Of a DNA stretch of 64,000 nucleotides, positions 4,048 through 62,100 are shown piece by piece (position 1 is the first letter of the stretch; every line of letters starts with the position of its first letter). Location: assembly GCA_030540715.1 (NCBI GenBank), contig JAUNVQ010000006.1:48048-112047 (forward strand). Direction: 5' to 3'. The stretch comes from Actinomycetaceae bacterium. GTDB lineage: Bacteria > Actinomycetota > Actinomycetes > Actinomycetales > Actinomycetaceae. Below the pieces are notes generated by a model, which saw only the letters and a list, made by a program, of their open reading frames with translations, made no database searches and was not told the origin of the DNA. Position numbers and translations under genes: made by a program.

Positions 4048-5550
4048 ATGGCGAGTGCACAATGCGCACCAACAAGTCTTGACCTGGCTCTGGGTAGGCA
4101 ACATCCACCTTCTTTACCTACCAATGTGCTGGAAGCAATGGCGCACTGTCAAAATGTAATGCAACAACTTCCACACGCAATTATGCATACGGCTCAGGTT
4201 TTCAGCGATGCTGGCTACGAGCTATCACTGGTGGGTGGTCCAGTCCGTGACGCATTTTTAGGCTATGCACCCAAAGATTTTGACCTAACAACGAATGCGC
4301 ACCCCCAAGAGATCGAACAACTATTACGTCGTGCAGGGGCATCAACATGGGATATTGGGCGAGACTTTGGCACAATTGGTGGACATCTTCAAGGGTGTGA
4401 CATTGAGATTACAACATATCGAACCGACCAATACACACCACGTTCACGCAAACCCCACATTGATTATGGGAAAGTCTTAGAGGGCGATTTATCACGGCGT
4501 GATTTTACCGTGAACTCAATGGCTTTGCGCCTACCGGATTTTACGCTGGTAGATCCTCACGGCGGTTTACAGGATTTATTGGAGGGGGTACTGGATACAC
4601 CAGTGAATCCCACACAGTCATTTGATGATGATCCGCTACGGATGATGCGTGCTGCACGCTTTTGCTCACAGTTGGGATTTGATGTTAGTGAACGTGTTTT
4701 AACGGCTATTGACCAGATGAAAGAACGTCTTTCGATTGTTTCGCTTGAACGTATTCAACAAGAATTCTACCGTTTAATAATTGGCATGTATCCGCGCCGA
4801 GGTATCGAGATGCTGGTTTATACGGGCCTTTGTGACCTGGTGTTACCTGAACTGTCAGCACTTCAACAAACTGTTGATGAACATCGTCGTCATAAAGATG
4901 TGTATGAACATACACTAACAGTTTTAGATCAGGCTATTGCTTTAGAAACCGATGATGATGGCCCAGTACCACGGCCAGATTTTATTTTGCGTTTTGCCGC
5001 GATAATGCATGATATTGGTAAGCCAGCAACCAGACGTTTTGAAGGTGGCGGTACGGTAACCTTTCATCAACACGATATCGTGGGTGCACGTATGACCCGT
5101 AAAAGAATGAAGCATTTACGCTTCGATAAGAAAACTATTCAGGCGGTATCTCACCTGGTGGCACTTCATTTACGTTTTCATGGTTACGGCGAGCAGTCCT
5201 GGACAGATTCAGCAATACGCCGCTACGTGGCCGATGCGGGAGATCAGCTTCAGCGACTGCATCGTTTGACCAGGGCTGATTGTACAACACGTAATCAGCG
5301 CAAAGCACGCTATCTATCAGCAGCCTACGACGATTTAGAGCATCGCATTGACGAGGTCGCCCAAAAGGAAGAACTCTCGAAGATTCGCCCCGATCTTAAT
5401 GGTGAACAGATTATGCACATCCTTGGTCTTTCACCAGGGCCCGAAGTTGGCAAGGCCTATAAGTTTCTTCTTGACCTTCGCATGACTCAGGGTGAACTTG
5501 GTGAAGAAGAAGCAAAGAAACGCCTACTAGCATGGTGGGATGCTCAATAG
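4048..5550 (+). CDS. cca: CCA tRNA nucleotidyltransferase
   Basis: Adds or repairs the 3' CCA of tRNAs. About 500 residues, usual for the actinobacterial enzyme (often labelled PcnA). The nucleotidyltransferase head has 'GGPVRDAFLG' and the metal-binding 'DFDLTT', then the tRNA-binding middle region and a C-terminal HD domain with 'MHDIGKP'. A longer frame begins at 4006, but ATG 4048 has AAGGA at a good distance ('gataaggacaacaat') and is preferred. It is divergent from the NUDIX gene, the conserved actinobacterial arrangement. Confidence 0.93.
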   Translation: MASAQCAPTSLDLALGRQHPPSLPTNVLEAMAHCQNVMQQLPHAIMHTAQVFSDAGYELSLVGGPVRDAFLGYAPKDFDLTTNAHPQEIEQLLRRAGASTWDIGRDFGTIGGHLQGCDIEITTYRTDQYTPRSRKPHIDYGKVLEGDLSRRDFTVNSMALRLPDFTLVDPHGGLQDLLEGVLDTPVNPTQSFDDDPLRMMRAARFCSQLGFDVSERVLTAIDQMKERLSIVSLERIQQEFYRLIIGMYPRRGIEMLVYTGLCDLVLPELSALQQTVDEHRRHKDVYEHTLTVLDQAIALETDDDGPVPRPDFILRFAAIMHDIGKPATRRFEGGGTVTFHQHDIVGARMTRKRMKHLRFDKKTIQAVSHLVALHLRFHGYGEQSWTDSAIRRYVADAGDQLQRLHRLTRADCTTRNQRKARYLSAAYDDLEHRIDEVAQKEELSKIRPDLNGEQIMHILGLSPGPEVGKAYKFLLDLRMTQGELGEEEAKKRLLAWWDAQ

Positions 5551-5721
5551 ACTGTACTTGTGCGTGCTTACCAGTATGTGTGAATTGTAGTGGGGGGGTA
5601 TGGAATATGAACATACGAGGAGGCTCACAGCAGTGCTATAGATTGCAAAGCTGGATATCATTTGCGAAGCTAGAGTTTATACGTGTACCTAGGATGGGTA
5701 GGGCAAAAGGGGATGATACCG

Positions 5722-6303
5722 ATGCGCACACGACGAAGTTTTAGACCATTGTATGCATTGGGTGCCGCAGTGTTGATGGTGGTATCCTTAACGGGCTGTT
5801 CTGGAGAGGCTGACAGCAAGGTTACCTCGCCTAAAGTTCAGGAAAATTCACAGGAAGCAACGCGCCCAAAGGATAATAAAAAATCACAGCAGTGTGGAAC
5901 AAATAAGCAGGCCATTACTGCTATTGAAACAGCTCGTTCTATTTACGAGGGCGTAGCTATTGCTATTGAACGTAAAGATACGAAGGAACAGTGGGAAGTT
6001 GAGATCGCTCATGGAGATGAGCTTCATGTTATTTATGTAACCTGTGATGGAGCCTCTGTGAAAAAAAGTGATGCAAGGATAGAAACAATAGATAGCGATG
6101 ATCAGCACTATATTGCGGGTGTTGAAGTACCACTTACTGATGCGTTGCAGAAGGTTCTGGGGCATAAGACACTTCTTGAAGAGGCCGAACTAGATGATAA
6201 AAATAACCGTCTATTATGGGAAATTGAAATGGATTCCCTTGAAGATCAGCATGATGAAAAGGTGTGGATCGATGCAGTTTCGGGCGATGTCATCATCGAG
6301 TAA
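5722..6303 (+). CDS. Lipoprotein with PepSY-like domains
   Basis: Predicted secreted lipoprotein of 193 residues. A lipobox ending 'SLTGC' follows a basic n-region and a hydrophobic core (residues 8-28). The mature part has a low-complexity Lys/Gln/Ser linker and then two short segments resembling PepSY motifs: 'AITAIETARSIYEG..' with 'WEVEI', and 'VPLTDALQKVLGH..' ending 'VWIDAVSGDVIIE'. PepSY domains are usually linked to protease inhibition or extracytoplasmic binding; the role here is inferred only from that similarity. ATG 5722 is chosen because AAGGGG lies 9 nt upstream; ATG 5713 directly abuts the same site. Confidence 0.78.
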   Translation: MRTRRSFRPLYALGAAVLMVVSLTGCSGEADSKVTSPKVQENSQEATRPKDNKKSQQCGTNKQAITAIETARSIYEGVAIAIERKDTKEQWEVEIAHGDELHVIYVTCDGASVKKSDARIETIDSDDQHYIAGVEVPLTDALQKVLGHKTLLEEAELDDKNNRLLWEIEMDSLEDQHDEKVWIDAVSGDVIIE

Positions 6304-7545
6304 TCATCACAAAAAATAAAAGTTATTCTATGTTTGAATTCAGCAAATTGTTTATTTTTAACTATCGTCCAACCGTTATCTTGGTGAAAAGATAGACGAG
6401 CCGAATATATTAACTACAGTGTATAGCGTAAGAGTAACATCCAGTATTGAATTGATGTATTAGGTGGAGGGGTAAAAGCTTGAATAGTGTAAGAGAAATA
6501 GTTTTTTACTAGGAAAAACAACAAGGGAAAGAGAATTAAAAAGGGGGGAGCCCTGCTGGGTATTCAGGCTCCCCCCTTATATATTCCACCGTGTTTCAGA
6601 TAGTCTATGTGTGACCGGGAACGGGGATAACTCCCCGATTATACAGATCATTCTAAACCATAAATCATATTTTATCTTGACGCCTTTGATTTTTATTGAC
6701 TGCAAGATCGATTTTTGTGTCGACAGTGTCAAAACTCGGTACTTAAGTACCAAGGATGTGTAAGTATTGGCTAGTGTTTTGTCTTTTGGAAACGATAAAT
6801 AAAAGATGTTATATAGATCACTTATTCCAAAAAATAAGAAAACTATGTTGGTAAAAGACAATTATTGTCACGAAATCAGTTGATGGAAGAATCATTGTCA
6901 GATCAATGCCCCCTTGAGCATAAAAAAGTAAGGTGATGAACCTCAAACATATTCTTAGGTAGCGCGTATCAAAGATATATGATTTGTGAACCATTGGATG
7001 TAGCAGCGTGTTAACAAATATCCACTGTTGCTACCTGAATTTAAGTATCTGGCAGAAGAAGGCTGAAGGTGTCCTTGTTATCGTCGTGACGTTCTTTTGT
7101 GATTCACTGGTCATGCTGGCCCCTAAGCCTTTGAGAAAAGATAGTGTCTGCTGGTGATGGTTGGTCTTGTTATGCGTATCGTGAAAGTGACATACAGCGC
7201 TTTCCTTGCCTTCCGTGACACGAAGAATACAGTTGCGAGTTTGCTGTTGATGATGTGATGCAGCCACGACTTCAAGGTCATCATTTTTCAGGTATTAATC
7301 GAATAAAGATAACGTCACACAATAAACTCTGTTTCTTTAGGTGTAGATAAGCTCTTTTTTCAGCGGTGCAACAACGCAGCAGATAGTATCAACGAACTTA
7401 TTGTTCTTGAGTTAAGTCACGGACGTATCAATAATTTTATGTATAAATGTATCCACCTTGTAACATCTTGCTGCCAGGTGACAAACTAGAAGTATGACGA
7501 AATGATGATAAAATCATGTGTGTCGGTTAATTGAGTAGGGAACAT
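6304..7545 (+). other. Long gene-free stretch between lipoprotein and JetD-like gene
   Basis: About 1.24 kb with no convincing gene on either strand. It is AT-rich and holds one strong hairpin (6543-6576). Short frames on the minus strand (6577-6861, 7031-7267) have no recognisable motif and no ribosome site. In complete MksBEFG/JetABCD systems the missing partner genes would lie next to the JetD/MksG gene, so this may be the scar of a deletion; I could not recognise any JetABC fragment by eye. Confidence 0.6.
6543..6576. terminator. GC-rich hairpin, probable terminator
   Basis: Perfect 10-bp stem GGGGGGAGCC / GGCTCCCCCC with a 14-nt loop, flanked by A's on the left and TTATAT on the right, so it could stop transcription in both directions. 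It lies 240 nt after the lipoprotein stop. Confidence 0.65.
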
Positions 7546-9087
7546 ATGGCCAGAAAGCTGTTGCGCACACCCCAGGATATTCGCTCGATCCTGTCGCAGA
7601 AATATAATCGCCATGTCACAACATGGTTGGTTCAACCGGAACTAGCAACATATTCGTTGCCTTTGGGTACTCCCACACTTCACGTCGCCCAAAATTCGCC
7701 GCAAAAAGTACAAAATTGGATAGATTTGTGGCAAGAAGAAATCAACGACTTTCCCCACTGGAATCTCCAATTGATGTCCCCTACCTGGCGGAATGTTGAA
7801 TTCACTTCCATTCCAGCACGGGTAACCATTATGGGGCCTGGTATTATTGCCGATTTATTGGGAAAAAGTGATGACTGGAAGCTCCTCAGAAAACGCTACA
7901 GCGAGCTCTATGACCGCTTGGCAACAAAAAACAACGAGTCCGCATCTATTATCGCCTCTGCGATGAAAAAATGTCTGCCGGAAATCCGTAGTTGCACAGA
8001 CGACGATTTTACCTATGTGATTGACCTTGCAATATGGTTACGCAACAATGCGTCCTCTGCAACGCACATGCGTGAACTTATGATGTCGGGTCAGCGGTGG
8101 ATGATGGAACACGCAACGTTTATCTCTATCCTTGTTGAAGCCGCACGAGCCTGTTCAGGGCTTACCGGGGGCCGCGATATTGGCATCACCACACCCCCCG
8201 ATGGTATGAGGTGGACATATTTTCTTGACGAATCATTGCGTCCCGCCGGTATCCGTTCCTTTATGGCAACTATTGACCAGCTAGCACAATTGCGGTTGAA
8301 ACCAAAAGTCGTCCTCTTATGTCAAAGTCAATACTTCCTTTATGCCATGCCAGACCTTCCCGATACCATCGCTATCCATACAGGAACACAAGATATTACA
8401 GCCTTTGCGCAACTTCCGTGGGTTCGCGAGGCAACGGTACTTTATTGGGGATCTATCGACACCAACAATTTTGGGAATGTTAATCAACTGCGTAAACATC
8501 ACCCCAGGGTACGCACGGTTCTTATGGATTCATCAACTCTGTTGAAATACGAAGACATGTGGGACTGCGAAACTGAGGCGTCCGTTGAACGTTTTCCCCA
8601 CTTGATTCCAGTGGAGCGTGAAACATGTTCGTTTATCTTGCAGTTGGGTACGTCGCGTTATTCAACAGGCGAAGTTCAAGCCTACGTCAAAGATATGTTG
8701 ACATCCTGGGGAACAATCCATGTAGAAACCCCTATGGAAATGTCAATATCACATCAGCAGCTTCAAGAACGCCTGGGCATCATGGATATGATTGGCGAAC
8801 CGCATATTGAAGACAACACATTTGTCTGTGCAGTACGCCTTGACCAAGATAAACTCCCGTGGGATGAGGCGTTGCCGGCCGTTGAAAAAGCTGTGGAATA
8901 TATTGTGATGCGAAAAAAAGATCGTCATATAACCGATGATGGTAACTCAGCTATTGGAAACGCTCATGACCAAGTTGAACGTTCAATCGAAATTCACCAT
9001 ACCGATGACAGTGCTGTATCTGGAGACAAAGATGAATGCGGTCACAATGTAACAAAAATTGAGACAGCGCATGGTAGATTCAACTAA
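7546..9087 (+). CDS. Orphan JetD/MksG-like protein (DUF3322-DUF2220) with altered Toprim residues
   Basis: 513 residues. The whole length resembles JetD/MksG, the nuclease subunit of Wadjet (JetABCD) and MksBEFG anti-plasmid condensins. N-terminal DUF3322-type features are 'TPQDIRSIL' and, mid-protein, 'MRELMMSGQRWMMEH', the counterpart of the family's 'YLRQ..GVDTKF.E.H'. The C-terminal half follows the Toprim-like DUF2220 region: 'AMPDLPD', 'LPWVR', 'YWGSIDTNN' (about residue 300) and 'VLMDSSTLL' (about 327). Key positions differ from the family as I know it: the 'EN' acid is 'QS' (about 259), 'GDIDTHG' reads 'GSIDTNN', and the 'RLEQE' segment is not visible. It is therefore probably not a standard nuclease. 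No JetA, JetB or JetC gene lies in the window. ATG 7546 is preferred over TTG 7531 because of the upstream TAGGGA. The last 17 nt overlap the amidase gene, suggesting coupled translation. Confidence 0.82.
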   Translation: MARKLLRTPQDIRSILSQKYNRHVTTWLVQPELATYSLPLGTPTLHVAQNSPQKVQNWIDLWQEEINDFPHWNLQLMSPTWRNVEFTSIPARVTIMGPGIIADLLGKSDDWKLLRKRYSELYDRLATKNNESASIIASAMKKCLPEIRSCTDDDFTYVIDLAIWLRNNASSATHMRELMMSGQRWMMEHATFISILVEAARACSGLTGGRDIGITTPPDGMRWTYFLDESLRPAGIRSFMATIDQLAQLRLKPKVVLLCQSQYFLYAMPDLPDTIAIHTGTQDITAFAQLPWVREATVLYWGSIDTNNFGNVNQLRKHHPRVRTVLMDSSTLLKYEDMWDCETEASVERFPHLIPVERETCSFILQLGTSRYSTGEVQAYVKDMLTSWGTIHVETPMEMSISHQQLQERLGIMDMIGEPHIEDNTFVCAVRLDQDKLPWDEALPAVEKAVEYIVMRKKDRHITDDGNSAIGNAHDQVERSIEIHHTDDSAVSGDKDECGHNVTKIETAHGRFN

Positions 9088-10174
9088 GCCAATCCAGCCC
9101 TCGGGCAGGATTCCTTCAGGAGACCTTTCGGTTTATACCGCTTCAGACAATGAGACTGCGAAGCGCTACTCTTGCGTAAATGGACCAATCATCGGTGGGG
9201 AATCGGTGAACGTAACACCGGCAGGCACGCCCTCTGGAATGCCCCCAAGACGTTCACGTAAAAGCCGCAGATCTTCTTCACGCGGTGTTCGCATTGCCGT
9301 TATTTCAGTTGCATCATTGCTGATGGTTGTTCTTATTGCGGTTGGGGCGGTGGCGCTTTTTGGTTCCAACCAACAGTCAAAGACAGCAACATCCAAGCCA
9401 TCGCAAATGATCAGGGAGTCGCAGGGGCGCGCATCCGATAAGAAGGAAGACGTTGTATCAACGATGGCGGCACCAAAAGTTGATGTCGACAAAAAAGGTG
9501 ATTCCATTGTCAGTAAGCTCACGCAATCAGGTGGAACAGCACTTCGGGGCAAGACAGTGCTGGTTGATCCCGGACACAGTGGGGGAAGCATTCCCGGCCA
9601 CAACGTGCCAGATGGGCGCGGTGGTTTTAAAGTATGTAATAACAGTGGTACTGCCACCAATGATGGTTACCCCGAACATACGTTTAACTGGGATGTTGCC
9701 CAACGTTTGAAAGCCAAACTGGAAGCTGCTGGGGCAAAGGTCGTGATGACGCGCAACAATGATAGTGCTGCCGGTCCTTGCGTTGATGAGCGTGGAAAGA
9801 TGTCGGCGCAAGCTGACGTTGTGGTGTCAATCCACGCAAACGGCACAACAAATCCCGCGGTCAAAGGGTATTTTGCCTTGGTGTCGTCACCGCCACTCAA
9901 TGAAGCTCAGGGCCAGCCATCTGTGGATTTGGCGCAGTCTATTATGAGCGCTTTGGCAGCGCAGGGGTTTGCGGCATCGCCAAACTATCCTCAGGGTTTG
10001 ATGAAACGCAGTGATATTGCCGGGCTGAATTTTTCGGTAAAACCAGCGGTAATGATGGAGTTGGGCGAGATGCGAAACCCAGAAGAAGCAGCGGTGATGA
10101 AAACTGAGGCCGGGCGCGAACGCTATGCTGTGGCCCTGTTTAATGGCTTGGCAGATTGGGCAAAAACCCATTAG
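9071..10174 (+). CDS. N-acetylmuramoyl-L-alanine amidase (Amidase_3), membrane-anchored
   Basis: Zinc amidase that cleaves the bond between N-acetylmuramic acid and L-alanine in peptidoglycan. It has 367 residues: a disordered N-terminus, one transmembrane anchor (about 71-97), a Lys/Ser/Thr-rich stalk and an Amidase_3 domain (about 159-365). Zinc ligands fit 'VDPGHSG', the Glu of 'YPEHTFN' and 'SIHANG'; the catalytic Glu fits 'MMELGEM'. Organisation and motifs resemble mycobacterial Ami1 (Rv3717), though that one is secreted. ATG 9071 overlaps the JetD-like gene by 17 nt; a longer frame begins at 9059. Sharing a transcript with a condensin-type protein is unusual. Confidence 0.92.
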   Translation: MVDSTKPIQPSGRIPSGDLSVYTASDNETAKRYSCVNGPIIGGESVNVTPAGTPSGMPPRRSRKSRRSSSRGVRIAVISVASLLMVVLIAVGAVALFGSNQQSKTATSKPSQMIRESQGRASDKKEDVVSTMAAPKVDVDKKGDSIVSKLTQSGGTALRGKTVLVDPGHSGGSIPGHNVPDGRGGFKVCNNSGTATNDGYPEHTFNWDVAQRLKAKLEAAGAKVVMTRNNDSAAGPCVDERGKMSAQADVVVSIHANGTTNPAVKGYFALVSSPPLNEAQGQPSVDLAQSIMSALAAQGFAASPNYPQGLMKRSDIAGLNFSVKPAVMMELGEMRNPEEAAVMKTEAGRERYAVALFNGLADWAKTH

Positions 10175-10280
10175 TGGTATCACGTTGTGCTGGGGCAGAG
10201 CACTCAGTGATTTCATTTCGGAGGGCGGAGCTACTCGCATTTGTATAAGCGATATTGAACAGGGTAAAGTATTATCCGTT

Positions 10281-10356
10281 GCCACCTTAGCTCAGTCGGT
10301 AGAGCAATTCACTCGTAATGAATAGGTCGTGAGTTCGATTCTCACAGGTGGCTCCA
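10281..10356 (+). tRNA. tRNA-Thr (anticodon CGU)
   Basis: Full cloverleaf: acceptor GCCACCT/AGGTGGC, D-arm GCTC/GAGC, anticodon stem ATTCA/TGAAT with loop CTCGTAA (anticodon CGT at 10314-10316, reading ACG), T-arm GTGAG/CTCAC with loop TTCGATT, then T and an encoded CCA. A terminator follows at once. The accessory island begins on its 3' side, a common integration spot, although I found no duplicated tRNA 3' end downstream. Confidence 0.97.
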
Positions 10357-10363
10357 CTTAGAC

Positions 10364-10400
10364 GCCCATTTGGATACAAATAGTCCAGATGGGCTTTTTC
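10364..10400 (+). terminator. Rho-independent terminator of tRNA-Thr
   Basis: Stem GCCCATTTGGA / TCCAGATGGGC (11 bp with one G-T wobble) followed by TTTTTCTTT, 8 nt after the tRNA end. Confidence 0.9.
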
Positions 10401-10401
10401 T

Positions 10402-10830
10402 TTGTCAGCGCTGGTTTTCATGGGGTTAGTAGGCTTGTGAGCCTCGTTTGCGGGGGCTATTGAGGACTCTCTAACGGGTTCCAGACGTCAAAAAGGCTCA
10501 ACTGATTCCTTCCGCACGGTTGCCATCAAAAGGTATAGTGTTCCGTCAAAAAGTATGGGTGTTTCCGTCAAAAGGTATGCCTTGAAAAAACTCCCTAAAA
10601 CGATTGAGCTACTCCTTACGGGCTCCACCAGGTCATGGGCGTGTAGATGAAACAAGAACCGACTTATCCGTTTCTTTGCTCGCTTCTTGGTAGTGAAAGC
10701 TGTTGGACTTACCGCACCTACGTCCTAAGGTGTTACGTACGTAACAAGTTTTACAATACGGATGCGAAGCCCATATTCCCTGTATCGCATCCCTCCACAC
10801 TCAAGTGGTCAAACAGGAAGGAATAGACTG
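10402..10830 (+). other. Gene-free junction of the accessory island
   Basis: No gene is visible between the tRNA terminator and the toxin-like gene. The stretch contains the triple short repeat described separately, and the palindrome TTACGTACGTAA at about 10733-10744. It looks like residue of past insertions. Confidence 0.55.
10522..10580 (+). repeat. Three tandem copies of a CRTCAAAARGTATR motif
   Basis: Copies at 10522-10538 (CATCAAAAGGTATAG core), 10541-10558 (CGTCAAAAAGTATGG) and 10562-10580 (CGTCAAAAGGTATGC), spaced about 20 nt apart. Repeated short motifs like this can be transposase- or integrase-binding sites at an insertion-sequence end, but no transposase gene is present. Confidence 0.6.
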
Positions 10831-11329
10831 ATGAAAAGTAGAGTATTGAAAGCTGTAGTGGCTTCCCTAGCCATGTTGATGGGCTCTGCATTAGGTATAG
10901 TACCTAGTTTCGCTGACTCGAATGTTGGCGGGGACCTAACGTCTGTAGGTGAAAACACCTATGCTCATGCCTCTGCGTTGCCTGAGCGTTCAATTCCCTG
11001 CACTCCACTCGGGTCGCTAACCCCCATGAATGTGCAGGCAATTGATTCCCCCGAGATCGTACCGATGTGTGGTGGAGGTAGAATTCCAGCTACCATCGCT
11101 GGCTTCCGGGTTTCACCTCATGCAGCATCACGCATGGCCGAGAGGAATATCTCTACTTCTCAGGTTCACGCTACCTTGACTAAAAGGATGCAAATATTAC
11201 GATTCGGAGCATAGGAACCATCCCTATTATCGCCGTAACGTAGTGGTTGCCACAGGGGGGAATACTATTCTCACGGTTTATATCTCCCCTAGTGGTCTGC
11301 CTAGGCGTTTTCAACCTATCATGTACTAG
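10831..11329 (+). pseudogene. Secreted DUF4258-like toxin-type protein, frameshifted
   Basis: ATG 10831 has a good ribosome site (GGAAGGAA, 8 nt). It begins with a signal peptide (basic start, hydrophobic core, 'SFADS' cleavage region near residue 29). The first frame ends at the TAG of 11212-11214, soon after 'HAASRMAERNIS', which looks like the start of a DUF4258-type fold. From about 11195 the +1 frame continues sensibly with 'YYDSEHRNHPYYRRN', 'NTILTVYISPSGLPRR' and stops at 11327-11329. One extra A at about 11194 explains both frames. DUF4258-type domains occur as C-terminal ends of polymorphic toxins; toxicity here is inference. It may be truly broken or a sequencing error. Confidence 0.66.
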
Positions 11330-11337
11330 GAGATGAA

Positions 11338-12192
11338 TTGGCTTCAGCAATCTTGATTAGTTTCGTAGTTGGTAAGCCGTATAATGACGGCACTGGCGGG
11401 GCTTTGATCTCCATTCAGGCATCTGGACCATCCGGATATTGGCAGTTTTGCGCAGTGACAGAATCTCGGAGTTTAGTTTGGCAAATCCGTGAAATGACTG
11501 TATGGAGCGACCTAGCGAACCAGGGTTCTGGTTTCAGTGATGAAGATATGGAGCTAGCGAGTTTCGTTCCTCTCGAGGGAGGTTTTGAGCTGGCTCTTAT
11601 GTCGACACCCAAAGGATTCGCTATCGAGGCTCGTGAAGACGCTCGAAAACTCGATCTTCGTAGACACACACGTATTCACGTTAGCCCGGAGGAAATTACG
11701 AGATTCGTGGACGGAATGCTTGCATGTAGCTGTGGCGATTGCATGGAGGTGACTATCGGCGAGATTGATTATTTCGCGGAGACGAACCCTGAATCAGTTC
11801 CGATGGTTCGGGTATTCCGAGACGGTTTGGTTGAACTACGTAATCAACCCGGACAATTTGTTGGCTTATCTATAAATCTCGATGATTTGAGCTTTGTGCG
11901 AGATATTCTACAGAGTACTTCTGCGAGATTGACTAGTGCCGATGGATGGAGTGAACCAAGCAAGCAGACATATTGGTGTCCATCAGCGGCTTTGCGTCTA
12001 GAAGCGACGATTATTACCGATCCTGAATCCTTGCAAAGACATCTTGAGCTCACGGTTTGTACATCTGAACATGGCGCTTTATGGACCGTGCCTATGGCGT
12101 GTTCTGAGGCTATGGAGAGTATAGATAGCTTTAGTAAAGATTCAGAATCGGTGGTCCTTTACGGCCGGGTACTTCCGGCTCTGCCAGTTTAG
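11338..12192 (+). CDS. Hypothetical protein, possible partner of the toxin-like gene
   Basis: Not recognised. 284 residues, soluble and acidic, no signal peptide or membrane segment. A TTG start at 11338 has AGGAGATGAA directly upstream, and the gene begins 8 nt after the restored stop of the toxin-like gene, so the two look co-transcribed. Notable parts are 'CSCGDC' near residue 129 and two segments with similar phrasing ('VWSDLANQGSGFSDED' and 'LSINLDDLSFVRDI') that could mark a duplicated fold. The position immediately after a secreted toxin-like protein suggests an immunity protein, but nothing in the sequence proves it. Confidence 0.6.
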   Translation: MASAILISFVVGKPYNDGTGGALISIQASGPSGYWQFCAVTESRSLVWQIREMTVWSDLANQGSGFSDEDMELASFVPLEGGFELALMSTPKGFAIEAREDARKLDLRRHTRIHVSPEEITRFVDGMLACSCGDCMEVTIGEIDYFAETNPESVPMVRVFRDGLVELRNQPGQFVGLSINLDDLSFVRDILQSTSARLTSADGWSEPSKQTYWCPSAALRLEATIITDPESLQRHLELTVCTSEHGALWTVPMACSEAMESIDSFSKDSESVVLYGRVLPALPV

Positions 12193-12392
12193 TGACACTC
12201 ATGGATATTGTCGGTCTGCTCAACTCAGACAAGTTGTCACACATGTAAGTTTGAGTCGATCAGATGCTTGGCTTGATTAGGGTGTTACTTCCAATTTTGA
12301 TTGCGAGTAACCCCTTTCGAGTTAATGCGCAATATCATGTGAGTCATAAGGCAGAGTCCTTTCTAGCCGTGCACCTGTTGCATTGCTGCTAG

Positions 12393-12620
12393 CTCTCCAG
12401 CGGGCAAATCCGCCACGGTAACCACCCGGTGCTCTCGTGGATGGTCGACAACATTCACGTGCGCACAGACCCAGCCGGCAACATCAAACCCGACAAACAA
12501 CGCTCCACCGAGAAAATCGACGGCGTCGTCGCCACCATCATGGCTTTAGATTGTGCCATCAGGGGCGGCGGACAAACAAACGGGAGCGTGTACGACGGGC
12601 GCGGACTACTCGTGTTCTAG
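12393..12620 (+). pseudogene. C-terminal fragment of a phage terminase large subunit
   Basis: The reading frame carries 'GQIRHGNHPVLSWMVDN', 'VRTDPAGNIKPDK', 'EKIDGVVATIMALD' and 'GSVYDGRGLLVF', the characteristic end of HK97/TerL-type terminase large subunits (nuclease domain C-terminus). Only about the last 75 residues remain; an in-frame TAG lies at 12390-12392 and no start or upstream part is visible. The base composition is clearly more GC-rich than the surroundings, as expected for imported phage DNA. Its stop overlaps the stop of the convergent Abi gene inside one CTAG. Confidence 0.85.
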
Positions 12621-13390
12621 GGACGCAGCTTGCGTATGGCTTTAACGCGTGAATTAGCGATGATCCACTGTGCAGCATCAGGATCAATGCGGGCTGCGGT
12701 GTTTTTTAACGCGGCAGCGTAGGCATCGAGCCGTTTGGTCTCAGCCGTTGTCGGTGCTGCCTCGAGAATCAACGGTTCTTGATGTGAAGCCCGATTACGT
12801 AGCTCGCGGATGAGCTCTACGTCAGATTCAAAGTCGGCTCGGTTGCGACTTCGGTAGTGGGGCATGCCTCCGTTATCGAGATTGACGAGTGCTTTCCAGA
12901 TGGTGACCTCATGGCGCGGGGTCAACAAGAAGCGCCAGTTGTCGAATGAGAGTTCTGCGATCACTTGATCTGGGGTAGCTACCCGTCCGCGTTTTTTGAG
13001 CCGGCGTTCGACTTTGGCTACGGAGTTTTGGAAAGGACCGTTGAAGTGGTAGCGGTTAGTCGCGTGATACCAGTCGGGATGGCTATAGTCTCTGGTAAGG
13101 CGGTCGTGGATGAAGTTACGGAGGAGTACCTCGACGTGGCCGAAATCTTCCAATAGCGCCTTGGATAATCTGGTGTTCCAGATGTAGAGAAGGTCCGGCC
13201 TTGCAGCGGCCGCGTAGCGGTGTAGCCGTGGTGCAGAGAACCAACTCTCCAAATAGCCCAAGCTCGCTTCCGCCTCAGGGGTGTGGTAGTCTAGAGAGCA
13301 GAAAGCCTCGGATTGGTCAATGTCGTGAAACATCGATACACCGCCGGGGCTATTGCTTTGTCCCACAGCTTCCTGGTTGTGTTCACTCAT
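12617..13390 (-). CDS. Abi_2-family abortive infection protein
   Basis: 257 residues of the AbiD/AbiF (Abi_2) family: 'YLESWFSAPRLHRY' in the N-terminal part, 'LFDW'-type middle replaced by 'IAELSFDNWRFLL', and near residue 198 the family signature 'LRNRASHQEPL'. The last gives the R-x4-H pattern of HEPN-type RNases ('RNRASH'), so RNA cleavage in response to phage is a plausible mechanism (inference from the family). The start ATG overlaps the stop of the upstream gene by 4 nt, meaning translational coupling. Its stop overlaps that of the terminase fragment. The pair sits in an island beside a tRNA, the usual setting for defence genes. Confidence 0.82.
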   Translation of the reverse strand: MSEHNQEAVGQSNSPGGVSMFHDIDQSEAFCSLDYHTPEAEASLGYLESWFSAPRLHRYAAAARPDLLYIWNTRLSKALLEDFGHVEVLLRNFIHDRLTRDYSHPDWYHATNRYHFNGPFQNSVAKVERRLKKRGRVATPDQVIAELSFDNWRFLLTPRHEVTIWKALVNLDNGGMPHYRSRNRADFESDVELIRELRNRASHQEPLILEAAPTTAETKRLDAYAAALKNTAARIDPDAAQWIIANSRVKAIRKLRP

Positions 13391-14064
13391 CGGCTTTCTC
13401 TATCACGCGAGAACCACTTTAACTGCGAGGCATCTTCAAGAAGAGCTTCTGAAGTCCAGACCTTATTCATCGGTCCTTGACGAGACGGCAAGTAATTATG
13501 CGCGTACTGGTATGAGCCGTGGTGGTCAAAGGGTTTCACAATGAAGCAGCGCCCACCAGATTGGCTGAAAACGTTCGGCACCCATTCCTCGATATGCCCA
13601 CCGTCAAGGATGAAACCAGCGTAAGAAGCCACAACGATTGATTTATTGGCAACCAGAAAGTCAGTGTCTTCCTGGCTCACGCGCCAATGTCCCGTCACGC
13701 GCAGGGTTCCATCAACTATCTGCTCCCAGGTATCAGCAGAAACGTTACTATTGACTTCGTCAAGGACATCTTTGCATCGCCCCCATGTTGCATCGAAAAA
13801 CAGAGAGGGACGAGCTTTCTGTTTTTCAACCCCCATCGAGCAGACTAGAGCTTTCTGTCCATCTTCAACCATCAAGGGACGGTTTCGAGCAGACGACAAG
13901 TATCCAATGTCCCAGCCTGAATACTGTTGATTTCGCTGATTAGCGCCATCTGGAAATACCGAAATGAGATTGAGATCGATGAGTTTACTCATCGTATTAG
14001 AACCAACACCCAGGATTTGCTTGGCGGTTTCAAAGCCGTAAACGGCGTTATCAAAACTGTGCAT
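13387..14064 (-). CDS. Unknown partner of the Abi protein, N-terminal HTH-like region
   Basis: 225 residues, first gene of the two-gene Abi operon (4-nt ATGA overlap). The N-terminus 'GFETAKQILGVGSNTMSKLIDLNLIS' looks like a winged or MerR-type helix-turn-helix. The remainder is not recognised; it includes a hydrophobic strand pair around 'SIVVASYAGFILDGG' and an aromatic C-terminus. By analogy with other two-gene Abi modules it may be the repressor, sensor or antitoxin of the RNase-like partner, but I see no known antitoxin signature. About 190 nt of promoter space lies upstream. Confidence 0.68.
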   Translation of the reverse strand: MHSFDNAVYGFETAKQILGVGSNTMSKLIDLNLISVFPDGANQRNQQYSGWDIGYLSSARNRPLMVEDGQKALVCSMGVEKQKARPSLFFDATWGRCKDVLDEVNSNVSADTWEQIVDGTLRVTGHWRVSQEDTDFLVANKSIVVASYAGFILDGGHIEEWVPNVFSQSGGRCFIVKPFDHHGSYQYAHNYLPSRQGPMNKVWTSEALLEDASQLKWFSRDRESR

Positions 14065-55295: not shown

Positions 55296-55670
55296 ATTCC
55301 CCTCTTTCTGCTAAAAACATTATGGTGCAGGCTCTTGCTGTGTGTCGATTGTATGGTGACACATAGTCATATTGCCAGTGAAACGCTCATGCGTCATTCA
55401 TTACTTTAATCACCAGCAGGGTTATGGCGAAAGTTCATCAACAAGTACGTTCTTGGGCAAGCGGTCAGAAACAGGGCGAGAGGACGAAAGTGGGACTTTG
55501 GGCCTATGGAAAATCTGAATGTTGTATAAGTTATATGTGTGAAATTTGAGGTATTATGGAATCGACTATGTGTTGAGTGTGGAAATACTCTACACTCAGC
55601 TATAGAACCACTGGATTGTCGATAATGCAACCAGTATGACAATTTTCATGAAGTAGCAAGGACGGATACG
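55296..55670 (+). other. Divergent promoter region (trkH / BldC-like gene)
   Basis: 375 nt, AT-rich near 55540, no gene visible. Confidence 0.45.
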
Positions 55671-55889
55671 ATGGCTCAGCAGCAAGCTCCACGTTTTGTG
55701 ACAGTGGCAGAAGTTGCCTCTCTCATGCGCGTGTCTAAAATGACTGTTTATCGTATGATTCACTCTGGTGAGCTTCCCGCGATCCGCGTTGGTAAGTCTT
55801 TTCGATTGCCTGAAGCAGCAGTCCATCAGCTCCTTCAATCAGGAGTGCATCAGTGGGAAGATGAAAGTGACTCTGCAGCCAATGGGTAG
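55671..55889 (+). CDS. BldC-like excisionase-type helix-turn-helix protein
   Basis: 72 residues, MerR/excisionase-type DNA-binding domain: 'FVTVAEVASLMRVSKMTVYRMIHSGELPAIRVGKSFRLPE'. Small proteins of this type next to the bS22 gene are conserved in Actinomycetota and include the developmental regulator BldC. AAGGA precedes ATG 55671. It is not a phage excisionase in this setting. Confidence 0.9.
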   Translation: MAQQQAPRFVTVAEVASLMRVSKMTVYRMIHSGELPAIRVGKSFRLPEAAVHQLLQSGVHQWEDESDSAANG

Positions 55890-56024
55890 GTAGACTTATA
55901 TAGGTCATTGCTTCCGTGATGTGTTCTGATAGTGGCGCTTGCCGTCAAGGGAAATATCATGCAGCATGAAGAAATGAAGAAACAGCCAAGAAGCCAACTA
56001 TAAATTTTATTAGAAGGGGGATCG

Positions 56025-56123
56025 ATGGGTTCGGTAGTGAAAAAACGACGTAAAAGGATGTCGAAAAAGAAGCACCGTAAACTGCTGCGAAAGACTCGCC
56101 ACCAGCGTCGCAATAAGAAGTAG
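56025..56123 (+). CDS. Small ribosomal subunit protein bS22 (AURKAIP1/COX24 domain)
   Basis: 32 residues, extremely basic: begins '[19 protein letters not shown]'. This is the actinobacterial bS22, found in mycobacterial 30S structures near the decoding site. GAAGGGGG precedes the ATG and a terminator follows. Confidence 0.95.
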
Positions 56124-56191
56124 CACAGATGCCTATGCTTCCTTACGGTAGTCGTTGGGAGGGTGACTAGGCGCGTATAGCTTTACATAAC

Positions 56192-56226
56192 AAAAAGCGG
56201 ATCTGATTTTTCAGATCCGTTTTTCT
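56192..56226 (+). terminator. Terminator after bS22
   Basis: Perfect 9-bp stem CGGATCTGA / TCAGATCCG with loop TTTT, then TTTTTC. Confidence 0.93.
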
Positions 56227-56584
56227 GTTTATTGTCCCCATTTTCTTAGTAAGTGAGGAATATCGTATTAACGTTCATCAGCGAGTTGCCTTGATTGGTC
56301 AATTTTTGTTTTTCGACAAATAATATTTACTTATCGGTTAACAATTCTGTTTCTACATGGAAGTATAAGTAGACTATGTTTTTAACATTGAGCGTCATAG
56401 CGATAAATGGAAGTAAAGTAAACATATATAGCTACTTACAATATTTGGCAAATACAAATTAAAGTATAAGTTATATCGAGTCTGAAACACTTCTCATTAT
56501 ATGATGAAAATAACTGTTTTTACATGACTTTTAGAGGCAGGCAAAGCGCGTTCTCTGTCGAAACTCTAAGATAGTGAAAACTAA
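56227..56584 (+). promoter_or_regulatory. Upstream region of surface pseudogene, similar to that of its neighbour
   Basis: AT-rich and gene-free. The part at 56476-56550 resembles 59048-59115 upstream of the second surface gene: 'TCGAGTCTGAA' versus 'TCGAATCTGAA', then 'TTATATGATG' versus 'TTATAAGATG', and 'TTTTAGAGGCAGG' versus 'CCTTAGAGGTAGG'. The shared upstream sequence suggests the same promoter and a tandem duplication. Confidence 0.6.
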
Positions 56585-58709
56585 ATGTTGAAAACTCGTC
56601 AAACCAGTGGATAATTCCACCGTCGTGTCGCAGGGGTGATGGCAACTCTTGCTGCAGCTTCATTAGCTCTCACCGGTCTTGTGGCAGCAGGCATAGGTGC
56701 CTGGGCTAATCTAGTTGCCGGTATGACGGGGATTATTCCGAATCCAGATAATCCCTCGGGTGTTACCAGTAAGATGTATTGGGGTCACGGAGCTGAAAAT
56801 CCAGAGGGTACCATCTGCGGATTTATTTTTGTTGAAAAAGGCGACTACAACACTCGCAGCGGATGGTATAAGAATAACTCTGGTGCTTTCTTTCACCTAG
56901 CATTCGGTGACGAGGCGCTTAAAGGTGTGGTCGTTCACGGTATGGTGACAACGAAAGACGGAGAAGTAATTCCGCGCCAACATGGTCCAAAGGTTGAAGC
57001 ATTGACGGCTGTTACCGATGACCAGGGTCGCTATTGTTTTGATTGTAGACCTTACGGCATGGAAGAACTAGGACGCGGTCTGGGACTTTATGATTTTGTC
57101 AAAGTGTGGCCTGAGCATCTTCTTGCCTATGATGCATACCCACAGGGTCTTGTGCCTCATTACTTTAATGGTGGAGGACGCACCACCCAGGTTCTTACAC
57201 AAACACTAAGTTTCTTGGCTCCAGCAGCTATTACTTCCGATGCACGTGCAGGTGTTGGGACGAAGAACCCTTACACGGGTGGTGCGAATATCTCTGGCGG
57301 CTACATTGATGGGGGGCTACAGTGTGGAACTGTTTGAGAGTGAAAATACCGAAGCAATTGATACGGAAATCATTAGGGTAGCAGACAAAACTGCTCCCGT
57401 TATTATAGCTCCAACAGAAATTACCGTAAGCGTTGGTGCTCCCGTTGCCGATGGTAACGAGATTACAGCCGAAGACGCCGTTGAAGGCAGCGTGATACCA
57501 ACTGTTCAGATCGGGCACAGTGGTTCTGGCCTGACATATGACGAAGCTACAGGCAAGCTCACAGGTAAAGGTGGCAAACCTGGCGACTACGTTATTACGG
57601 TGACAGCTAAAGGCAGTAAAGGCAATACAGTAGTTAAACAGATCCCGTTGAGTGTGCGACCCGATACACAGAACCCAACGATTGATGATGTTCTGGGTTT
57701 GAGTGAGGGCAAGATTGTTGGCAAGACTGGTCAAGAGATTGCACCAGTGACAATAAAAGCCTCTGATGATTCAGGTAAAGTTGTCATGTCAGTGAAGAAG
57801 GGTACAGCCCTGCCTAAAGGTCTTGTATTCAATCCAACAACTGGTGTTATTATTGGTAAGCCGCAACAGATTGGTACGGGCAGCTTCACTATTGTTGCAA
57901 CCGATCCATCTGGCAATAAAACCGAACAGGAGATTGCCTATGTCATCACTGATGGTGTGAAACCAACAGTGAAAAATCCGGGCGCATTAGATGCTTTTGT
58001 TGGTGAGGAAGTAACTTTGCCTATTGAAGCTAAGGATGACAATGAAAAGGTGACCTGCAAGGCAACTGGTTTGGCAAAGGGGCTCAGCATCGATCCTAAG
58101 ACCTGCACGATTTCTGGAACACCAACGGAAGAGACTGCAGGCAATAGTGTTGTGACGGTAACCGATGAAGCCGGTAATACAACGTCTGTTACCGTTGCGT
58201 ACAACGTTATTGATAAGAAGAAAGACACCGATGGTGATGGTGTGCCCGATGCTCAAAAGGTTTCCAATAACACAAACCCCGTGAATCCGAATCTCCCTGG
58301 TGATGTTGGGCGTCCTCAATAACCGCAACTGAATCCTTCAAACGGCCATGTTGTTGATGGTAAGGGACAACCCGGTAAAACGATCGAGAGCTGGGTGGAG
58401 GATAGGCTTGTTGGCGAAGGCATCATTGATGAAGATGGTCACTTCAGCGTGACGTTGAAGAAGCCTTTGGCGCCAGGTACACACTTCAAGGCCTACGTAG
58501 TGGATCCTGAAACAGGTCTTCGCTCTGAAGCTGCTGAAGGTGTAGTGAAAGTGGTGAAGGTTCCATTTGGTGCAGGTACAACGGGACCCGTTGGAGTGCT
58601 CTCAAAGACGGGTACTACCGCTGGTGTGTTAAGTGCTGTCGGCTTGCTTGCATTGCTGGTGGGTCTTTGTGTTCTTATAGCGCGTAGACGTGAGCATGAA
58701 GAAATCTAA
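56585..58709 (+). pseudogene. Degenerate LSKTG-anchored surface protein (deletion, two stops, frameshift)
   Basis: Paralogue of the gene at 59155. The N-terminus from ATG 56585 has a TAA at codon 10 (56612). Downstream 'MATLAAASLALTGLVAAG' matches the neighbour's signal sequence, and the N-domain with 'GTICGFIFVEKGDYN' follows. At G6 (57311-57316) the frame changes: upstream text ends 'SGGYIDGG', while the other frame begins 'GGYSVELFES', corresponding to neighbour residue about 1063. About 830 residues present in the neighbour are thus missing. Putative-Ig (He_PIG) repeats follow ('TGVIIGKPQQIGTGSFTI'), then TAA at 58320 and, in the same frame, a stalk, 'LSKTG', membrane helix and 'RRREHEEI' tail. 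Both stops would be CAA to TAA changes. Confidence 0.85.
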
Positions 58710-58726
58710 ATAAACACCGGAAAATT

Positions 58727-58774
58727 AAAGAGGGCGAAGGCTGCCTGATGTTGCTGCCTTCGCCCTCTTTTTGC
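58727..58774 (+). terminator. Terminator after surface pseudogene
   Basis: Perfect 15-bp stem AAAGAGGGCGAAGGC / GCCTTCGCCCTCTTT, 14-nt loop, then TT. Confidence 0.93.
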
Positions 58775-59154
58775 GTTCGAGGTGATGTAATGAGCCCAGA
58801 CAAATAGTTTCTGTAAGTAAACTCACACCACAATTCCTTTTCTTCCACAAGGTGCAGTAATAAAAGTATGAGAAATGGTGAAGATTTCAGTGTGAAGTGA
58901 ATGAAATGTAATCTTACTTCGGTTTTTATTGAAGTTCTTGCGCTGTTATGGCAAAAACGAAATATCGCGCAGGGGTCTATAAGAGTTTTCAAAATATTAG
59001 TTTACTTATTTTTCTTATTGTTCTCATTAAAGTTTTCATACAATTAGTCGAATCTGAAGGTTCTCTAATTATAAGATGTACCTGACTGTCCTTAGAGGTA
59101 GGTGACAGTGAGGTGTATCGTTTCTCTCCTCACCCCCATGAAAGTGAAGAAAAT
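58775..59154 (+). promoter_or_regulatory. Upstream region of the large surface-protein gene
   Basis: 380 nt, AT-rich, no gene. The part at 59048-59115 resembles the region upstream of the pseudogene. Weak ribosome site 'GAAAGTGAAGAAAAT' before ATG 59155. Confidence 0.55.
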
Positions 59155-62100
59155 ATGAATAGTAATTTAGTGGTTCGTAAAAAACTATGGCACTGGACAT
59201 CTGGCACTATGGCTACACTTGCAGCTGCATCACTTGCCCTAACGGCCATTGTTGCCGCAGGCCTTTTTGCTATAGCTTATCCTGCAGTCCGTGACGCACG
59301 CCCTGGACATGATGTTAAAGGCGGCATGATTTGCGGTATGACATATATTGAGCAGGGAACTGGTAATAATTCTGGCTCTAACCATACTGGCGGATATTTC
59401 GATGCCGAAAGTGGCGATATTGGCTTAGCTGGCATTAAAGTCCATGCTCTTTTGGTCAAGTATGACGGTACTGTGTACCCTGAACAAGATGGTGCTCAAA
59501 CCAAGCCTATGACGGTAGTGTCTAACGATAAGGGCGAATACTGTTTCGATTTTCATTCGGTTGGTCTGGCTGAACGCGCTGTACCGAACGAAAGAAAAAT
59601 TGATGATGGTGACTACGTAAAAGTCTGGCCCGAGGGTTGGAATCAAGATAAACTTGAACCGCTATTCTTCAACGCTGGTGGGCGGATGACCGAAGTTGAA
59701 ACGCTTCACCTACTGAACCTCGCGCAGACCACATTCAATAATGGTGGCATTGCATGGGGTGGATATTACTTTGGTGGTGCAAACACTACTGGTGGATATA
59801 TTGACGGGCTAAACTTCTCGTTCAAAGAAAAAACTCCGCGTGATGGTGGAGACGCTACCGGACCTCGTGCTCGACACCTGCCGGAATCAGAATGGAAAGT
59901 TTCTGGGTTCACTCGTGAAGAATTGCAGGGGACCAAGAATCGTTTGGATAAAAACGCTAACAATACTCAATGGTTCACTACCGTTTTGGGTGAACAACCT
60001 CTGTACTACGCAAACTATGGTGTAGAAAACTTGACTATAACGCCAGAGGATTCCGATGGGGATGGTGTCTCGGATGCTCAGGAAGTTCACGACAAGACCG
60101 ATCCAAATGATCCTTATAGCTACAAAGATAGAGACGATGACCGCGTCCCTGATGTTGTCGAAGAAGCCGATGGTACCCGTCCATGGGCCCTCATTAAAGC
60201 TAACGCCCGTAAATCATTTAAAGATAGCGATTCTGATGGTGTTCCTGACTATGTAGAGATCCGTCAGGGAACAGATCCCAACGATAGAACAAGTTTCCGT
60301 GATACTGATGGTGATGGACGTCCTAACTATAAAGAATATTATGATGTCAAACCCTATATTTGCGGTAAAGCCTATCAAGATATTGACTTCACCTATACGA
60401 AATATCAAGCTGGTGAACCCCCTATGCGCAACCTCCGAATTGTCGGTTCATCAGCACACTTGGCTGGCGACGATGTAACTGGTACCGCAACAACCTATTA
60501 TGACTACACAGATGATGAGGGACGTTGGTGTATTGTTTGGGATAGCTACGATGAGTTCTACCCAGATTGGTCGTTTGGTTACAGTCCCAAGGCATTCGTA
60601 ACAGCAGAACCCGAAGAAGGACTTAACAATGTCCCCTATATTCCGGCGCAAGATCCGTGGATGAAAGATTGGATTCTTAACCACAAGGCAGGTGTAGGAA
60701 ACAACCACTGGTTTAACTTTGCTGATCCTTTAGAAGCTCCTAAGGCAACACAGATTCTGCCATATTATTCTGGAGGTACACAGTGGGGTGCGGCTACTGG
60801 AATTTATCGTATTGCCCCCGCCTTCTTCGGTTTCTTTCCCACCACGCCCTCTGCTGATTACAGCGAAAACTATGGTTATGTTGGGCAGAGCTTTACCGCC
60901 ACGGTACAAAATGCCTATGAGGATACTGGGCCTTATAAGTTGATATGGGCTAAAGAGGGGACCAAGATCAAAGATTTGGATACAAAGGGAACTGTATTAG
61001 CTGATGTTCTAACCGCACAGGGACAAAATGTCACATTAGATTTTACTGTTCCAAATGATGCCAAGGTTGGTGCTTATGCCATCTATTTAGTCAGCGTTGA
61101 CGAGAGTGGTAATGTGCGTAAAGGCTTTATTCACGATGTTGATATTTTCAAAGTACTTGACGAACGTGGAGTTCATTTCGATTCCGCTGAAAAGCGTGAC
61201 GCTGTTTTAGATAATGATCTTCTTGACGAGAAATCAGAGACGCTAAAGCCAAAGCAAGACGAACCAGAAATTGATAACACGGCAGCAGATTCAAAGCAGG
61301 TGCATAAAGCCTATGTTGGAGACACAATTTACGGTTACTACCGTGGTATTGAGCCTCCTGCCCATAACGTCAAAGATGGAGAAAAACATGAGCCGTACAA
61401 ACTGGTCATGTCTAAACCAGGTACGGCCCCAATTGTGCTTGCTGAAAAAGTGGTTGGTGAAAAGGATCCCAAGCAGGGTGAGATAGCTCTTCAATATAAG
61501 AGTGAGTTTGTTGTTCCTACCGAGGCTACACCGGGAGACTATGAAATCTTGTTGATGCGCATATCAGACAACACGATTTATGATTCCCATCCACTTACAG
61601 TTCTTAATGGCCCCAAACTAGTTGTCGCAGATCCTCAATCAGCAAAGCAGGGCGCTATATCGCCCGCTATTACGGTGACGGATAAACGGCCAGACCACAC
61701 CTATAAGATGGCCTTCGTTGACAATAATAAAGTTGAGACTGAAATTCCAGTTGACTCCACAACATTTACTATTCCTCAAGATGCCACTTTGGGTATTGGT
61801 GAAGTTCGACTTATTGATATTACTGATGGAGCTAACCCAGTTGTTGTTGCGAAAGATTCGCTTGAGGTTCTTGACGGGCAAAAACCTGTGATTGAAACAA
61901 ATAATGTGAAGAAGATTCAAGGACAGCCCATTGTTCTTCCAGTAACGGTAAAGGACAACGTGGATAGTAACCTTGAACCCACATGTGAACCTCTGCCAAG
62001 TTGGTTAAAATGGAACGCAACTACTAGGCACTATGAAGGTACTGTTCCAGAAACTGAACCTGTTGGTGATGTGACATTGACATGCAATGTTACTGATAAA

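Follow-up and report, generated by a model that had tools for sequence, protein, structure and literature searches.

The gene at 7546..9087 of the window (the whole 64-kb stretch of Actinomycetaceae DNA analysed here) encodes an intact relative of JetD/MksG that has likely taken on a new, structural role in which it no longer cuts DNA. JetD is the cutting subunit of the Wadjet plasmid-defence machine, and such a change would be a rare re-use of a defence nuclease. We consider the gene to be a retained, probably non-cleaving pseudonuclease and not a decaying gene. In the working model that we favour, with a probability of roughly 0.4, its product would be a non-cutting dimeric scaffold, likely located at the cell pole or septum, that acts together with the amidase encoded directly downstream.

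A JetD homologue with a replaced active site

The features of the gene are as follows (pLDDT, predicted local distance difference test; P0002, an orthologue).

7546..9087, forward strand: JetD/MksG-like gene, putative pseudonuclease, 513 amino acids, with Pfam, PADLOC and solved-structure matches and an ATG common to its orthologues
7546..8160, forward strand: N-terminal DUF3322 or CAP-like half, amino acids 1-205, with the RQLPIxGxDTKW motif degraded at amino acids 176-185
8323..8328, forward strand: Q260-S261 in place of E-N (MksG E236-N237), from the alignment with other JetDs
8389..8391, forward strand: Q282 at the position of MksG Tyr258, from the alignment
8452..8454, forward strand: S303 at the position of MksG D279, the first acid of the Toprim DxD, from the alignment; the second acid, D305, is kept
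8662..8835, forward strand: clade-specific insertion of about 60 residues (amino acids ~373-430) ahead of the former RLEQER motif, from the L353-R431 spacing
8842..8853, forward strand: D433-Q434-D435-K436 in place of EQER (MksG E349, E351), from the alignment
8911..9084, forward strand: unconserved C-terminal tail of low confidence, amino acids 456-513, with identity to P0002 at 7 of 38 aligned residues and pLDDT below 50 from amino acid 464

The open reading frame (ORF) spans 7531-9087 with a TTG start, and the ATG at 7546, which yields the 513 residues, is backed by three orthologues whose N-termini read MARK or MARQ. The initial annotation, made from the DNA letters alone, had described an intact 513-codon gene with JetD landmarks over its full length, and both statements hold. 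Hidden Markov model searches matched both Pfam domains far past the cut-off (JetD_C, E-value 4.9e-21; DUF3322, 3.5e-17), PADLOC labelled the protein JetD1 (1.9e-62), and NCBIfam had no matching model for it. MksG of Corynebacterium glutamicum (8b7f) was the top sequence match among solved structures (9.1e-21, near full-length alignment) and also the top structural match to the predicted monomer model, in which the two-domain CAP-Toprim fold of JetD/MksG is present, as had been proposed for checking. The landmark 'MRELMMSG' is indeed related to a JetD motif, but it is a diverged RQLPIxGxDTKW that is two residues short and has lost the lysine. The same two-domain fold and Toprim core are found in Wadjet JetD (7til, 8q72), from which the protein differs in its changed RLEQER motif and the 60-residue insertion, while Topoisomerase VI-A and Spo11, which are active DNA-cleaving enzymes, are about 6-12% identical over the aligned part.

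According to the C. glutamicum study as excerpted, MksG binds its metal through E236 and D279, whose alanine mutants were drastically impaired in nuclease activity; a Y258 mutant was strongly reduced, and E349 and E351 are candidates for an alternative nucleophile (PMC10123090). Counting along the 8b7f alignment to obtain MksG numbering, we found that all of these residues are changed in the 7546..9087 protein (E236 to Q260, Y258 to Q282, D279 to S303, and E349-Q-E351-R352 to D433-Q-D435-K436), together with N237, which is S261, whereas the second DxD acid of MksG, D281, is retained as D305. The protein thus reads GSID where other JetDs read GDLD, GDID or similar. D279, N237, E349, E351 and R352 are each invariant in 142 of 142 other JetD rows, E236 is kept in 141 and Y258 in 114. 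These rows comprise 120 proteins and 22 loci (137 distinct over Toprim); the 120 are the best listed of 652 matches to one active JetD, and they therefore lean towards active JetDs. Among all 31 rows of relatives, some of them near-copies, the metal aspartate is present in 31 and the glutamate in 30; alignment A2 was built without nine of the 31, which are fragments or carry large insertions.

The earlier reading that the metal-coordinating acids are replaced, QS for EN and GSID for GDID, is therefore confirmed against the 142 rows, and the active site is altered more extensively than was claimed. Since published MksG mutants at the same positions are impaired, we infer from the sequence that the protein is very likely catalytically dead, which gives good support to the initial description of an intact but probably non-cleaving protein. 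An enzyme with rearranged chemistry, in which other acids stand in for E236 and D279, is improbable. In its favour, D305 is found in all four members of the clade described below, E260 in two of them, and a new aspartate at position 340 in all four; however, several catalytic and surrounding positions have changed together, and according to the excerpted text D279A alone drastically impaired MksG (PMC10123090).

A conserved clade of four proteins

Protein searches recovered three other members of this clade, all metagenomic and 74, 58 and 52% identical over the alignment. S303, S261, Q282, D435, K436 and the insertion of about 60 residues are common to all four, and the L353-R431 spacing is 78 residues in each, as compared to 15-45 (mode 18) in the 142 others. 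The E-to-Q change noted initially is present in the 7546..9087 protein but is not clade-wide, as position 260 is still E in P0003 and P0004. This retention, read on the tree, suggests a stepwise loss in which E236 went after D279. Position 433 is D in three members and E in P0002.

In a tree of 48 rows the four proteins form one group (support 100/100) with a stem of 1.74 changes per column and end branches of 0.12-0.45, although the exact place of the clade is unsure because the tree tool flags an unusual amino-acid make-up in all four. The canonical JetD of Actinomyces glycerinitolerans (P0005, genome G067) falls in the same 21-row group with modest support (88/92); it differs from the clade in having E and D at the metal site, and JetA and JetC alongside. 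Across 22 canonical JetDs, 54 columns are conserved in at least 85% of the sequences; all four clade members retain 20 of these columns, and about half of the other 34 are catalytic-site columns or lie within the RQLPIxGxDTKW motif. In five clade pairs, whose CAP halves are 48-54% identical, the Toprim halves are 57-66% identical, compared with a Toprim median of 57% for canonical JetD pairs at 45-55% CAP identity; the sixth pair shows 76% for CAP and 77% for Toprim, against a canonical median of 78%. Thus, the Toprim half appears about as constrained as in active JetDs despite its changed chemistry. Fast change on the stem followed by constraint is the pattern expected of a changed role, and this conservation makes it likely, slightly less so than the loss of catalysis, that the gene is retained for a function.

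These observations bear directly on the possibility that a Wadjet operon was lost and the gene is its decaying remnant; of the explanations considered, we rate this one as the least probable. That JetABC genes were not found (see below) would fit such a remnant, but four divergent open copies carry the same replacements and insertion length, identity to P0002 is 76-84% across the segments of amino acids 1-455 as compared to 18% in the tail, and codon usage is ordinary. What decay may look like is illustrated by the JetD of genome G003 (L019, 9936-11246, reverse strand; alignment row L005), in which the metal Glu is Asp and no JetABC was found within the 20 kb examined. The near-identical JetDs L043, L044 and L045 retain Glu, and that of G064 has JetA and JetC beside it; the G003 gene is possibly at an early stage of loss. 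A 163-residue JetD fragment (L021, genome G005, ORF 10689-11177, reverse strand) with no JetC in the stretch examined is likely a decayed Wadjet remnant.

The three orthologues are a lower bound. A profile search with A2 returned the same four proteins only, and this search was insensitive, since canonical JetDs in its own query alignment were not returned. Profile A1 found no second member in 213 genomes of the family, 396 of the order and 396 of the phylum; these sets overlap in part, and those of the order and phylum were sampled evenly from larger groups. The best-scoring canonical relative in the family search was the A. glycerinitolerans protein (next-best score 214 bits versus 921). Two pattern scans of genome contigs gave some pattern matches and no relative. 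Among the matches listed in literature searches, none described a JetD that naturally lacks cleavage or stands alone.

No Wadjet partners found in the genome

No JetABC genes lie in the window, in agreement with the first reading of the sequence. The remainder of the genome was also searched (99.75% complete, 54 contigs). Models for JetB (PF13835) and JetA (PF11855) had no match in it and did match in C. glutamicum, and the JetC and JetA of G067 (PADLOC JetC1 and JetA1) used as queries found no match in it, yet matched those of G020. SbcC_Walker_B matched two ORFs, one SbcC-like (AAA_23 and SbcC_Walker_B) and the other the housekeeping SMC (SMC_N and SMC_hinge). A Wadjet or MksBEFG system, with JetA, JetB and JetC encoded together with JetD, was thus not found, and in this the protein differs both from Wadjet JetD and from MksG, which has MksBEF partners (PMC10123090, excerpt). 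Neighbouring genes were examined in 22 relatives, six from the order and 16 from the family, in which 25 other genomes had a JetD match; JetC adjoins JetD in 20 of the 22, the exceptions being L019 and L021. A conserved clade without partner genes fits the earlier suggestion of a domesticated protein.

The proposal that the protein is a Wadjet inhibitor fares less well. Such an antagonist would pair with an incoming JetD to give dead mixed dimers, or would block JetABC, and the fold retained in the predicted model would allow for this. However, the gene is chromosomal and stands beside core genes, JetABC was not found in the genome, and no relative was found in a phage collection or in one two-pattern scan of viral contigs, which gave some pattern matches. 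A plasmid search matched ten records, all at most 29.4% identical. Mixed dimers are unlikely because identity to the aligned canonical JetDs is at most about 31%. Altogether, we judge an antagonist very improbable, below even an active nuclease and barely ahead of a decaying remnant.

DNA binding and the choice between non-cutting roles

The MksG paper, in its excerpted text, suggests that R156 and K166 help to bind DNA (PMC10123090); by our count both lie in the RQLPIxGxDTKW motif, and their positions are lost or patchy in the clade. The isoelectric points of the clade's CAP halves are 8.45, 5.87, 6.66 and 7.15, against a median of 9.72 in other JetDs. Judged from sequence, canonical DNA binding seems to be weakened. 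The suggestion of a DNA-binding adaptor is weakened accordingly by the loss of the conserved basic motif and a CAP half less basic than the median, although the CAP net charges (2, -4, -1 and 0) stay within the range of other JetDs (-7 to 9).

The same evidence bears on the main rival of the scaffold model, a non-cutting cofactor of the nucleoid or of SMC. Here a dead JetD dimer would dock on DNA or on the housekeeping SMC complex and shape or mark the chromosome independently of the amidase. The normal partners of JetD are SMC-family complexes (PMC10586767, excerpt), an SMC is encoded in the genome, and D305 and the Toprim core are retained. The loss of R156 and K166 and the low CAP isoelectric points argue against it, an objection that the charge range partly offsets. 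We consider this role unlikely, but clearly less so than the other alternatives.

According to the scaffold model, replacement of the metal-binding and DNA-cutting residues would leave a protein that no longer cuts DNA, while the Toprim-mediated dimer, as judged from the known fold of the family, would remain. The dimer would then serve as a scaffold at the cell pole or septum. This location is a guess from C. glutamicum, where MksG shows septal enrichment and, in a two-hybrid screen, an interaction with the polar scaffold DivIVA (PMC10123090, excerpt). Its cooperation with the cell-wall amidase is likewise a guess, from gene order in one genome. Taken as a separate step, a polar or septal scaffold working with the amidase is a tentative and rather unlikely proposition. 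Quite unlikely, though ahead of an active enzyme, is the fuller version, in which a former plasmid-cutting Wadjet nuclease now acts as a non-cutting adaptor at the pole or septum that controls the sole Amidase_3 and links the remains of a defence system to cell separation.

Several points weigh against the scaffold model. The amidase may start at Met57 (9239), which would leave a 151-nt gap instead of an overlap. Amidase loci were examined in ten relatives, out of 12 other genomes that had an amidase match, and no JetD gene was present at any of them (in G012, the stretch covered upstream was 1.7 kb); the pairing is seen in one genome. With D305 kept in every member and E260 in two, weak or metal-shifted activity is possible. 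Finally, the predicted model is confident over only part of the insertion (pLDDT 43-57 over amino acids 391-420).

Genomic neighbourhood

9071..10174, forward strand: N-acetylmuramoyl-L-alanine amidase (Amidase_3), with a likely membrane anchor judged by eye; sole Amidase_3 match in the genome
10281-10356: tRNA-Thr (cgt), immediately following the amidase gene
10364..10394, forward strand: intrinsic-terminator-like hairpin after the amidase gene and tRNA-Thr; 10 such sites in 6200-10800 versus 4.6 expected in shuffles

The first ATG of the amidase gene (9071), its putative start, overlaps the JetD-like gene by 17 nt, and the two genes may well be co-transcribed. On the upstream side, the neighbours encode thioredoxin, a pyridine-nucleotide-disulphide oxidoreductase taken to be thioredoxin reductase, MurJ (mviN) and a NUDIX protein, and pcnA is also located there. 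A thioredoxin/MurJ/NUDIX/pcnA block is typical of the chromosome near the origin in actinobacteria. An AT-rich gap of 1.24 kb (6304-7545, GC content 0.375) precedes the JetD-like gene, with no convincing ORF and no Rfam family. Over 5500-11500, Rfam gave one match above the gathering score, the tRNA, and one weak match on the opposite strand at the same place.

The four genes past tRNA-Thr (10762-14064) have no Pfam match above the cut-off, and an island at the tRNA is therefore possible. Within this stretch, 12617-14064 on the reverse strand is a two-gene unit. One gene encodes an Abi_2-like protein (Pfam E-value 3.1e-5, just under the cut-off; PADLOC PD-T4-5, 3.5e-9), and there is a 4-nt overlap between its start and the end of a gene for a 225-residue protein with no Pfam match. 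Together the two may constitute an abortive-infection pair close to the JetD-like gene. Elsewhere in the window, a 360-residue ORF (57240-58322) carries three putative immunoglobulin-like (He_PIG) stretches; 58993-62660, near this ORF, holds no closed ORF of at least 100 amino acids, and Rfam had no match over 55300-64000.

Implications

If the favoured interpretation is true, the JetD dimer has a use beyond cutting, as there is a conserved lineage without the cutting residues, with an insertion and, in the one searchable genome, no JetABC. The case also serves as a warning that homology tools can give a defence label to a nuclease that is probably dead, as PADLOC did here with JetD1. For the family, the clade provides a natural set of substitutions, lost stepwise, with which to ask what JetD does besides cleavage.
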